Positions 3,015 through 62,320 of a stretch of DNA of 64,000 nucleotides are shown piece after piece. The stretch comes from a virus. How positions within the stretch are numbered: position 1 is the first letter of the stretch; each line of letters opens with the position of its first letter. A program made the translations under genes and the position numbers. The notes beneath the pieces were generated by a model. The model worked only from the letters and a program-made list of their open reading frames with translations, was not told where the DNA came from and did no database searches. The DNA is taken from the IMG/VR virus record IMGVR_UViG_3300022514_000030, positions 62,001 through 126,000 of that record. One strand, written 5' to 3'.

Positions 3015-3605
3015 TTACTGTTTCTCGACAATCGGATAGTATGGTTCTAATGAGCCGTCTCCTTTGTACACTCCCCTGATGATTGGCGATATCCTGCGCG
3101 CGATGAATGTGAAGTGACGCTCCATGACGATAGTGTCAACATTGACACCGCTGCCTTCATTGAGCAGCTCAACGTCGTATATCTTCTGGAACGCGGTCTG
3201 GCCATACTCGTTGGCAAATGTCATCATGATGTCAAATGGTGGAATCATGTCTGCGTATATGATGTTTTCAGGCTTAATCAGGTCAAATCCTGGAGGTACA
3301 TGAATTGCCTTGTACTGACGCAGGTCGGATCCAACCGTTGGCGGATTCTTCGCATACTCTGCCGCCGCCTGATTGGCTTTCTTGTTCCACTCAGATATCT
3401 CTAAAGCGCTGAACAGGTCGCTCTGCTGTTTGGTTACCTGCGAAACGTTACCGGCAGCGGTAAACATCGCTGGTGGCGCTATGCTCTGCCATACAGCTTG
3501 GTCCTTAACAAGAGCTTCAATAAGAGCATCCCTGTCAAATACGGCAAATACCAGGGTGCCGCTTATGCCGCGCTTGCCGCGGCTGAAGGATCTTGGATCT
3601 GGGCT
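3015..3605 (-). CDS. Tail-tube-like virion protein, 3' exon
   Basis: This is the second exon of a gene interrupted by a group I intron. A free-standing ORF could start at the ATG at 3611, but that ATG lies within intron sequence. After splicing, AGC at 3605 would follow GGT at 4730, giving a protein of about 244 aa. The exon carries GISGTLVFAVFDRDAL, PPFDIMMTFANEYG and an IARRI ending, all shared with the C-terminal half of the amidase-fusion protein downstream. Its place immediately after the sheath gene is where myoviruses usually carry the tube protein, so tail tube is the best reading, but no named tube family was verified. Confidence 0.72.
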   Translation of the reverse strand, partial: SPDPRSFSRGKRGISGTLVFAVFDRDALIEALVKDQAVWQSIAPPAMFTAAGNVSQVTKQQSDLFSALEISEWNKKANQAAAEYAKNPPTVGSDLRQYKAIHVPPGFDLIKPENIIYADMIPPFDIMMTFANEYGQTAFQKIYDVELLNEGSGVNVDTIVMERHFTFIARRISPIIRGVYKGDGSLEPYYPIVEKQ

Positions 3606-26005: not shown

Positions 26006-26323
26006 TTATTCCCTCTCTGACATAATAGGCTCTTCAGTCGGAATACTATCAACAGATGTTCTCTTGCGTCCGCCCGCCCACGGCAGCGGTAGATGCCCAA
26101 TCGCCTTACCGCCAACCGCGATCAACAGCGGATAGCTCAGTACCGTGAAAAAGTCAACCTGCACCGGACTTAGACTTTCCGACAGCGCCAGCCTAATAGC
26201 TACATACATCCAAACAGGGAGGATGAGTATAACAACAACGTCGGCTAGGCTGAGACCGTCGTCGTCCGCCCAAAAACCCTTCTCAATAACCGACATTGCC
26301 TTGTGTGTAAACATCTTAAGCAT
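26006..26323 (-). CDS. Small two-helix membrane protein, possible holin or antiholin
   Basis: It has 105 aa with hydrophobic segments near residues 28-45 and 55-75, and a polar C-terminal tail (SIPTEEPIMSERE). It overlaps the end of speD by 8 nt and lies directly upstream of another small membrane gene; paired small membrane proteins are typical of holin/antiholin sets. No family signature was recognised. Confidence 0.5.
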   Translation of the reverse strand: MLKMFTHKAMSVIEKGFWADDDGLSLADVVVILILPVWMYVAIRLALSESLSPVQVDFFTVLSYPLLIAVGGKAIGHLPLPWAGGRKRTSVDSIPTEEPIMSERE

Positions 26324-26693
26324 TAGAGCAGCACCCCAAGGAAACAGGTATAGGTCTTTTGATGTGCACCATGTTCGCTATGCAGTCATCACCCAACTTT
26401 GAAATGATATAGCTACATGCGGCAACTGGATCGCAGTGCCTGCCGCATGTAAAACAGTCTACAGCTGCATAGCCGTACTCGGGATATGTATGGATCGAGA
26501 TATGGCTTTCGGACAAAAGCAGTACGACTGAAACGCCTTGCGGCTCAAACTTCTCGTAGGCCTCACCCCGAATGGTGGCCCCGGCAGCCTGAGCCGCACA
26601 CCGTAATATGTCCCTTATCATGTCTAGATTGTCCAGTATCGCAGGATCCGCATTGTATATCTCACAGATGGAGTGTTTGCCGTGAACCTCCAT
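26316..26693 (-). CDS. speD: S-adenosylmethionine decarboxylase proenzyme
   Basis: The protein has 125 aa, the usual size of bacterial class 1B SpeD. The self-cleavage site is intact: LSESHISIHTYPEYGYAAVD with Glu62-Ser63, plus His68 and Cys83 (FTCG), the residues known to be needed for processing and catalysis. Cleavage makes a pyruvoyl cofactor, and the enzyme decarboxylates S-adenosylmethionine to supply the aminopropyl donor for spermidine. No spermidine synthase is seen here, so the phage probably boosts host polyamine production, perhaps for DNA condensation. The gene lies between virion and membrane-protein genes, with GGGGAGG upstream. Confidence 0.95.
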   Translation of the reverse strand: MEVHGKHSICEIYNADPAILDNLDMIRDILRCAAQAAGATIRGEAYEKFEPQGVSVVLLLSESHISIHTYPEYGYAAVDCFTCGRHCDPVAACSYIISKLGDDCIANMVHIKRPIPVSLGCCSNA

Positions 26694-26826: not shown

Positions 26827-27030
26827 CTAGCAGCACACGTTTGCTACGTACTCTACACCGTCCTCGTCCTGGTCTATGCTAAAGATGATCCAATCCTTGT
26901 CAGCTAATACAGTGTGCACATCATATCGTACTTCGGGGTTAGCAAGGCAAACGAATTCGCTGCCTTGCAGTTCAAACACCAGCACAGCGTCACGCCTAAC
27001 GTCTCCAACATAGATTGCTCTGGTTCGCAC
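26827..27030 (-). CDS. Small unknown protein
   Basis: It has 67 aa from a GTG at 27030, with AGGGTGAT upstream. It is rich in Val and Asp and has the segments GDVRRDAVLVFEL and DWIIFSIDQDEDG. It lies between the tRNA-like RNA and speD on the same strand. No domain was recognised. Confidence 0.4.
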   Translation of the reverse strand: MRTRAIYVGDVRRDAVLVFELQGSEFVCLANPEVRYDVHTVLADKDWIIFSIDQDEDGVEYVANVCC

Positions 27031-27050: not shown

Positions 27051-27180
27051 CGAGGCAGGCTGGGATTTGCACCCAGCATGGTGGCCTTTCCGCTGCCACC
27101 TCGGGGCTTATACCAAGCAGTGGGCAGGAGCCTTGCGGTCCTCCACATCCCTAGCGTTTACCTATTCCGCCACTGCCTCG
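27051..27180 (-). ncRNA. Unusual 130-nt tRNA-like RNA
   Basis: The ends pair over 8 bp (CGAGGCAG/CTGCCTCG). The start TGGCGGAATAGGTAAACGC is a near-perfect tRNA-Leu D-arm sequence, and the 3' part has a T-arm (CTGGG-TGCAAAT-CCCAG). Instead of a 7-nt anticodon loop, CTAGG and CTTGG enclose a 32-nt insert forming a hairpin (GTGG-AGGA...TCCT-CCAC) capped by GCAA. A second arm GGTGGC...GCCACC takes the variable-arm place. No anticodon can be assigned, and no CCA is encoded. It could be a degenerate tRNA, a tRNA with an insertion, or a tRNA mimic. Confidence 0.65.
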
Positions 27181-27257: not shown

Positions 27258-28187
27258 CTATTTCCCGCATAAAGCCGCGGACGGATATGCGGTTACAAAT
27301 CCATATCCAGTGTATCTATCAAGCCCTGTTTTCCCTATGTCAACGGTCATAAGCCTTGTAATAGTCTTAAGCTCGCCGGCTGTAGGCTTGCGTCCTGTGC
27401 GCTTCACGAACTTCTCTATTACGCACGCTGCAAAGGCCGCCACATGCGGACAGGCCATAGATGTGCCGCTCATGTTTGCATAACTGGAGTTGATATAGGT
27501 TGATACAATGTCTTCACCCGGTGCGGCTACCTCTACGTGGTCGTTTGTGTTTGTGAAATAGCACGCTGCAAAGTTGTGCTTTATCGCACCAACGGAAAGC
27601 GTCTCGGGATACGCCGCCGGATAGTCAAGCTCAATAGTGCTGTCATTGCCATCACCGGAATTTCCTGCTGCACACACAACAAGCATGCCGCTTGCAAAGG
27701 CCTTTCTCACAGCAGCGGCAAGCAAAGGATGATGATCAGGCCCGCCAAGGCTCATGTTTATAACATCCACCTTTTCGCCGTTAGGCCCGCGCCAGTTGAC
27801 AGCATAGTCAAGCGCACGAATCACCCTGTCGGTACTGCACTGGCCACTGGCGTCAAACACCTTGATTATGAGCAGCTTGGCGTCCGGCGCGCCACCTCTG
27901 ATCCGTCCGTTTGCGGCTATTATCCCCGCAACGTGCGTTCCGTGTCCGTTCTCGTCCCTGATATCCGATATGCTCTGTCCATCCACCAGGTTCATACCAC
28001 CAATGATATTGGCCTTTAGATCGGGATGGTTCACATCACAGCCGGAGTCTATAACCGCTACTACTACGCCTTTGCCGCTGCACTCCTTCCACAGGTGCTG
28101 GAACCCCATGAGCTTTATGTTGTCGAAGGTGCTGTTCACTGCCTCGAAAACGGTAAGCTCATGCGCTTGTACGTCAAAAAGCTGCAT
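27258..28187 (-). CDS. Subtilisin-family serine protease (intracellular type)
   Basis: The product has about 309 aa, with GGAGGG before the ATG at 28187. The S8 catalytic triad is complete: Asp in VIDSGCD (about residue 47), His in NGHGTHVAG (82) and Ser in SGTSMACPH (243), with the oxyanion Asn in AAGNSG (176). There is no signal peptide, and the short N-terminus resembles intracellular subtilisins, so it probably acts in the host cytoplasm or is packaged in the virion. It sits among tail and head genes, between the coiled-coil fibre and the tRNA-like RNA. It could process virion proteins or degrade host proteins. Confidence 0.9.
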   Translation of the reverse strand: MQLFDVQAHELTVFEAVNSTFDNIKLMGFQHLWKECSGKGVVVAVIDSGCDVNHPDLKANIIGGMNLVDGQSISDIRDENGHGTHVAGIIAANGRIRGGAPDAKLLIIKVFDASGQCSTDRVIRALDYAVNWRGPNGEKVDVINMSLGGPDHHPLLAAAVRKAFASGMLVVCAAGNSGDGNDSTIELDYPAAYPETLSVGAIKHNFAACYFTNTNDHVEVAAPGEDIVSTYINSSYANMSGTSMACPHVAAFAACVIEKFVKRTGRKPTAGELKTITRLMTVDIGKTGLDRYTGYGFVTAYPSAALCGK

Positions 28188-28236
28188 CACTATGTACCCT
28201 CCAAACCCCAGCCTGCTAGTGAGAAGAAGTTAACAA

Positions 28237-61957: not shown

Positions 61958-62320
61958 GTGGGCTACTATTCTGAAGTGATCATCGTAATTGCGAAGGATG
62001 CGCATGAGGCCTTCCTCAATGCGCTTGCAGCTCGAGCGTTTGAGCTGCAGTGTATCGGTGAATGCAGCCCGGCAGAACTGCTTGCGGCTGCAGAAAAGGA
62101 GGAACATCCTGATGCGGTTGTCTACCACTGGCCGTTCGTCAAGTGGTACGATAACTATGACCCTGACGTGATGGCCATAAGGGATGCACTCAAAGAGCTT
62201 GACTCTGACTGCTACAAGTTCTACCGCCTTGGTGAGGAGTACGGCGACTTTGAGGAAGATGGTAACTATCTTGGCGATCCACAGTTCTATATGGTGCACA
62301 GGCTTGAGATGCTGTCGTAA
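61958..62320 (+). CDS. Unknown protein
   Basis: The product has 120 aa from a GTG at 61958, after AGGAGGTGGTCA. It opens with a beta-alpha unit (GYYSEVIIVIAKDAHEAFLN) and ends in an acidic half (YRLGEEYGDFEEDGNYLGDP). It may be a small alpha/beta fold. It follows the previous gene by 16 nt, so it is in the same operon. Confidence 0.45.
   Translation: MGYYSEVIIVIAKDAHEAFLNALAARAFELQCIGECSPAELLAAAEKEEHPDAVVYHWPFVKWYDNYDPDVMAIRDALKELDSDCYKFYRLGEEYGDFEEDGNYLGDPQFYMVHRLEMLS

Follow-up and report, generated by a model that had tools for sequence, protein, structure and literature searches.

The window analyzed here is the whole 64,000-nucleotide stretch; in its parent virus record, which is 172,670 bases long, it runs from base 62001 to base 126000. 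Within it, a 564-nt gap upstream of the portal gene, between genes for a subtilisin-family (S8) protease (27258-28190; Pfam PF00082, E 3.2e-59) and an S-adenosylmethionine decarboxylase (26316-26693), houses a 130-nt tRNA-like RNA. All three genes lie on the minus strand, as does the RNA, which a covariance model and its sequence place at 27051-27180 with its 5' end at 27180; an earlier note on this DNA had put such an RNA at the same positions but had left the strand unstated. The protease is the upstream neighbor, and about 20 nt downstream of the RNA lies a small minus-strand ORF of 67 aa (26827-27030), which is a mechanical call and has not been shown to be a gene. The decarboxylase and protease of this phage adjoin its portal and head genes. 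ARAGORN found zero tRNAs over the window, Rfam returned nothing at 27051-27180 even with relaxed thresholds, and the phage record encodes one ordinary tRNA-Trp. A search beside the RNA for a sigma-70 promoter or terminator gave nothing convincing.

The acceptor stem pairs a 5' strand, CGAGGCAG (27173-27180), with a 3' strand, CUGCCUCG (27051-27058), that encodes no CCA. Its canonical 7-bp portion is 27173-27179, one extra pair brings it to 8 bp, and the discriminator, G73 rather than A73, is paired inside it. U8, G9 and the D arm follow (UGGCGGAAUAGGUAAACGC, 27154-27172, the D arm itself reading GGCGGAAUAGGUAAACGC), and the T arm (27059-27077) has a 6-bp stem, GCUGGG/CCCAGC, closed by a UGCAAAU loop. 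No anticodon stem-loop (5 bp, 7 nt) was found in the window copy, either in the sequence or in its folds. The anticodon arm and variable region are instead replaced by a 76-nt exchangeable head that ends in a conserved AU (27078-27153). Both minimum-free-energy and constrained folding place a GCAA-capped hairpin, GUGGAGGACC-GCAA-GGCUCCUGCCCAC, at 27120-27146; a second small hairpin, GCUUGGUAUAAGC (27106-27118), comes from constrained folding of the single sequence only, and a variable-arm-like stem-loop, GGUGGC-AGCGGAAAG-GCCACC, is predicted by folding at 27080-27100. The earlier note had described each of these main parts, namely the 8-bp acceptor, the tRNA-Leu-like D arm, the T arm, the GCAA-capped hairpin in the anticodon region and the long variable arm, and all of them are present. 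Its inference that the RNA is not a standard decoding tRNA also holds, since the loss of the anticodon arm excludes ordinary decoding. As none of 257 copies of the class described below has a head similar to this one, its internal fold rests on one sequence.

The minus-strand fold of the window copy reached -58.5 kcal/mol, compared with -48.7 ± 3.7 kcal/mol for shuffles (z -2.6, with 3 of 200 shuffles as good), while the plus strand folded no better than its shuffles (z -0.6). The comparative evidence is much stronger than this single-sequence fold. The earlier note had proposed a covariance-model search as a check, and a model built from 60 copies, with the window copy left out, recovered exactly 27180-27051 at 70.6 bits (E 3e-17) and had no other match in the 172.7-kb phage record (eight stretches). 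The covariation analysis across homologues that it also called for was performed on 103 distinct copies and 17 pairs (8 in the acceptor, 3 in the D stem and 6 in the T stem). These pairs were formed in 95.5% of cases (98.5% for the T stem), and the covariation score was 0.654, versus 0.165 ± 0.009 for shuffled alignments and 0.07-0.14 when the partners were slid; the acceptor was among the covarying elements. Over 138 copies, acceptor pairs were formed in 91-98% and T-stem pairs in 96-100%. Two-sided changes occurred in 12 of the 17 pairs. Decay of a tRNA gene, which the earlier note had named as the result that would refute it, could account for the absent anticodon and for the failure of tRNA finders to detect the RNA, but it is refuted by such strong covariation over many copies.

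Either half of the body also leads to the other. A scan of IMG/VR with the D arm alone returned 26 loci, and most of those with the D loop AAUAGG ran on to a matching T arm (UGCAAAU) and an acceptor complement, with no anticodon arm between. Conversely, among the matches listed from a scan with the T arm alone, 83 of the 94 copies examined showed a recognizable D arm following a matching acceptor strand upstream; the D arm of the window copy was recovered in this way too. Because scans with one arm recover the other half, the D half and T half predict each other. When both arms were required together, at least 120 stretches matched in IMG/VR, and a set of 84,980 prokaryote species yielded 71. 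Part of the apparent constancy of the D arm and T loop across the class comes from these search patterns, and recombination there may contribute; scans that left one of the two free revealed some variation.

Reading 257 copies defined a common body: an acceptor of 7-8 bp, U8, a D arm of the form GGCGGAAUAGGUARACGC with G18-G19, the head, AU, the T arm and the returning acceptor strand. The conserved U that precedes the T stem is inferred, from its position, to act as base 48. The T stem has 6 bp, one more than in tRNA, which gives a 13-bp acceptor-T stack (7+6), and the sixth pair covaries (G-C, A-U and C-G). In a tabulation of 254 copies, the UG-type T loop went with a 6-bp T stem and A17 in 244 of the 244 copies scored, and UUC-type T loops accompanied a 5-bp stem. 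The window copy has every class hallmark: the UGCAAAU loop, the 6-bp T stem, A17 and AU before the T stem.

With tRNA-Leu, a class II tRNA with a long variable arm, the class shares the D arm UGGCGGAAU.GGUARACGC, U8, A14, G18-G19, C56, A58 and a 7-bp acceptor. It departs from tRNA-Leu in lacking an anticodon arm, in having G55 for U55, a 6-bp T stem and no CCA, and in bearing a head of 44-109 nt. The Leu-type D arm and acceptor would suit a tRNA-Leu that decodes once an intron or insertion has been spliced from it, and the earlier note had listed a tRNA with a small insertion among its options. We give this idea very little credence: no remnant of a split anticodon arm stands on either side of the head, Rfam gave no group I or group II intron match, and the class is set apart by its T loop and by the length of its T stem. 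Genuine tRNA-Leu genes in these phages differ as well, with a UUC loop, a 5-bp T stem and an encoded CCA, which is present in only 2 of the 257 class copies. The discriminator is A73 in 138/257 copies (54%), and in the window copy it is a paired G; leucylation is therefore unlikely for many copies.

Two variations on this body were seen. In one sub-group, the D loop is itself enlarged by another structured insert (~50-115 nt) that separates AAUAG from GUAGACGC and often takes the form of a hairpin followed by GGUAAA (L042 at ~3578, L148, L236, L311, two in L312, L327, L331, L337, L345, L352, L365, L388, L395, L398 and L100). The inserts of L042, L312, L331 and L352 contain the block CCTGCGG..AGTAGATAAGG.CGTG..CACCTGA..ACAGGGGCGCAGGTCACGG or close variants of it. 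A parallel type, found in L030, L033, L037, L039, L040, L049 and L051, some of which are tRNA-rich phages, combines a D loop AAUUGG with an ordinary UUC T loop and a 5-bp T stem, again with no anticodon arm. Its paralogues in L030 and L051 have a common acceptor, AGUCAGG, and different middles.

We compared the class with known families and systems. Canonical tRNA (Rfam RF00005) was ruled out by the lack of a 5-bp/7-nt anticodon stem-loop, by the failure of both the tRNA covariance model and ARAGORN to detect the RNA, by a stack of 7 (8) + 6 bp rather than 7+5 and by a UGCAAAU loop in place of UUCRANN. A tRNA-Leu that serves as a LeuRS substrate was rejected for the window copy, which does not meet A73, and a tRNA with a group I intron was rejected because Rfam scans found no intron family and the head is only 76 nt. 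tRNA-Sec has a 13-bp acceptor-T stack (8+5) and a long variable arm. The class resembles it in both stack length and long variable arm but divides the stack as 7+6 and has a Leu-type D stem of 3 bp rather than a long one; with neither a UCA anticodon nor an anticodon arm, it is not tRNA-Sec. Like tmRNA, it combines tRNA-like ends with a structured insert, sometimes with a pseudoknot, but it has a normal D arm and no evident tag reading frame and is usually only ~100-130 nt, and neither ARAGORN nor Rfam gave a tmRNA match. The tRNA-Other of Bacillus cereus is likewise a tRNA-like RNA outside translation, although it keeps its anticodon.

Of the known RNAs, T4 species 1 RNA (rnaC) comes closest in kind: a small stable phage RNA that also lies beside a tRNA cluster, it has a tRNA-like 3' part without an anticodon arm. 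That 3' part (L245:1109-1247) folds into an acceptor, CGGAACG/CGUUUCG, a hairpin of 9-10 bp and a T arm, which is why rnaC may be a distant analogue. Unlike the class, rnaC has an ordinary UUCGAAU T loop on a 5-bp stem, its D region differs and it has additional 5' sequence; homology was rejected: with filters off, the class model scored it at only 8.1 bits (E 0.21 on 3.2 kb). Species 1 RNA is late and Northern-confirmed, and its function has been described as unknown (PMC9697503). The 3' tRNA-like structures of plant viruses are described as viral RNAs that imitate the tRNA body (PMC5723415), but they are parts of RNA genomes, whereas the class consists of internal genes of DNA phages. No description of the class was found in Rfam 15 or in the open-access literature, and preprints or subscription journals could hold one. 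Every known family tested was excluded by at least one of its defining features. Both the tRNA mimic and the novel phage RNA suggested in the earlier note are supported, though for a class that numbers hundreds of copies and not for a lone gene.

Copies come mostly from phages and prophages of Bacillota. Members among Bacillus phages include SPP1 (between genes 9 and 11), phi3T, BUCT082 and Goe3; others are found in Listeria phage B025 and in phages of Brochothrix, Weissella, Leuconostoc, Lactobacillus, Paenibacillus and Enterococcus. The class model confirmed the RNA in 13 of 16 named records and gave no match in whole T4 or in two portal relatives of the window phage, Moorella MTATph1 and Bacillus KLEB27-3. 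The subtilase relatives of the window protease had zero copies, and a portal search found a single contig, whose identity extends over part of the portal gene. Among 299 genomes drawn from the taxonomic class to which a Fictibacillus genome belongs, 6 carried a copy, the seed included; in two other genome groups drawn only the seed did. No annotated RNA feature covers the copies in the named phage records listed, and in Goe3 a hypothetical protein overlaps the copy. The revised SPP1 annotation nowhere mentions a tRNA (PMC6316719). Directly downstream of the SPP1 copy, in the gap between genes 9 and 11 (L169, ~3118-3162), we noted an apparent 45-nt mini tRNA-like element, ACGGAC...GCGGGUUCAAUUCCCGG..GUCCGU, that consists of nothing but an acceptor, a D-like arm and a T arm. 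A 1.3-kb unannotated gap in Lactobacillus phage LpeD (L290:1147-2480) contains a class member and might harbor additional RNAs.

Several records hold more than one copy; one of 48.6 kb has five model matches, one of which is a true tRNA-Leu. The neighboring gene was co-directional in 133 of 173 cases upstream and 125 of 169 downstream, and as neighbors are mostly co-directional, we favor a transcribed RNA over a DNA element. No constant partner gene was found; the Pfam assignments of 124 downstream and 124 upstream neighbors were scattered, the commonest being HNH (7), HNH_3 (4) and DUF722 and DUF1492 (3 each). This setting bears on whether the RNA is punctuation acting in cis, its tRNA-like fold allowing RNase P and RNase Z to cut polycistronic messages and its head being incidental. 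Such a role would fit the position of most copies between co-directional genes, a position that in several siphophages is where the late regulator meets the terminase or HNH genes. However, an acceptor-T stack would suffice for cutting, yet heads of 44-109 nt are kept, folded and exchanged; copies also sit amid tRNA genes, as in EFDG1, Lenus and Goe3, and both neighbors are co-directional in only 88 of 157 cases. We consider punctuation an improbable account.

The heads themselves are highly variable, with 196 families in 257 copies, and the span from D arm to T arm measures roughly 41 to 110 nt. The only sequence motif that stands out as common to them is the 3' end, (C)AU, with a weaker trend toward TAAG-type words 5-12 nt into the head. 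A stem that stops directly before the AU occurs in 56 of 105 copies, compared with 13.1 ± 3.4 in shuffles. Of those 56, 18 could form at least five Watson-Crick pairs between the segment at the anticodon position and the inside of the variable-arm stem, versus 8.9 ± 2.6 when segments were swapped between copies, which makes a pseudoknot probable in part of the class, though it is not proven. The amount of folding matters for the possibility that the RNA is a guide, whose body gives only processing and stability and whose head base-pairs with specific host or phage transcripts. A constant scaffold, a variable insert and several paralogues per phage are what a guide RNA might look like, but heads folded this strongly leave little single strand. 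Nor was a significant target found in the phage's own genome, where the longest antisense match to the window RNA, 15 nt, was equaled by 2 of 30 shuffles and so was not beyond chance. We regard a guide function as unlikely, without dismissing it.

Head variation also arises by wholesale replacement. Among 102 pairs of copies with shared flanks, 65 had heads that blastn could not align. Because tandem copies from a single contig, for which flank sharing is trivial, account for some of these pairs and a few of the pairs may be distant homologues, we relied on re-tested cases from separate genomes. phi3T and BUCT082 have identical 5' halves and flanks that match at 92% and 90%, but unrelated heads. 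In Leuconostoc phage Ln-9 and contig L397, the flanks are 95% identical on both sides and the tRNA-like halves differ only in the last base, while the heads (73 and 44 nt) are unrelated. The same was seen for L059 and L081 (flanks 89% and 99.6%) and for L102 and L367, whose flanks match at 98% and whose heads measure 61 and 105 nt. In the opposite configuration, the 44-nt head of L397 recurs with 100% identity in L384/L389, where neither the flanks nor the acceptor are related. Unrelated heads on near-identical flanks and halves, together with one head on unrelated bodies, indicate that heads move as cassettes between bodies. Mismatched, chimera-like T stems of two known types were observed in L056 (2473-2575), L105 (2107-2216) and L071 (492-606); in L056 the 5' strand is of one type and the 3' strand of another. 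These few cases suggest, by inference, that crossovers occur within the conserved T loop.

Cassette movement between identical halves is also what a recombination or cassette site would produce if the element acted as DNA and its inverted repeats merely resembled a tRNA. That explanation leaves unaccounted for the full tRNA elbow sequence, the tolerance of G-U pairs and the bias in transcription orientation, and no recombinase is constantly nearby; we judge it very unlikely.

Our observations thus comprise the fold and its covariation, a wide distribution, the absence of an anticodon arm, a separate elbow type and the exchange of heads between phages. We think it probable, if well short of certain, that the window RNA belongs to a separate and widely distributed class of phage RNA in which a tRNA(Leu)-like body carries a folded, exchangeable head, and that the RNA is stable, non-decoding and trans-acting, although no expression data were found and no partner is known. 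RNase P and other tRNA enzymes recognize the elbow and the acceptor-T stack. As both are conserved here, processing to a stable RNA is likely but unproven. Under this reading, the RNA would be co-transcribed with neighboring phage genes or tRNAs and excised by the host's RNase P together with the enzymes of tRNA 3' processing, which measure the acceptor-T stack, and it would then persist as a stable, non-decoding molecule. On weaker grounds, the head may be the working part, binding a partner that is not the same in every host or competitor; the likeliest candidate is some protein or RNA of the host that the phage must block or decoy, such as tRNA-acting defense factors. Variation in the partner would explain why heads are replaced wholesale on a constant body. 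For this untested role, our leading guess, and no more than a guess, is that the RNA decoys or inhibits host factors acting on tRNA. More tentatively still, and with rather less than even confidence, we propose that these RNAs are modular phage effectors, with a constant body processed by host tRNA enzymes and interchangeable heads, each directed against a different host or rival target and exchanged by recombination in the conserved halves during an arms race.

The class represents a common structured RNA gene of phage genomes, including those of SPP1 and phi3T, that has been passed over by tRNA finders, Rfam and annotators alike. A tRNA body that stays constant while the heads on it are swapped shows modular diversification of a non-coding RNA directly, which is rare. 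The class may also shed light on the T4 stable RNAs, long a puzzle and still without a known function, and SPP1 or phi3T in Bacillus subtilis provides a ready test bed for the purpose of phage tRNA mimicry.
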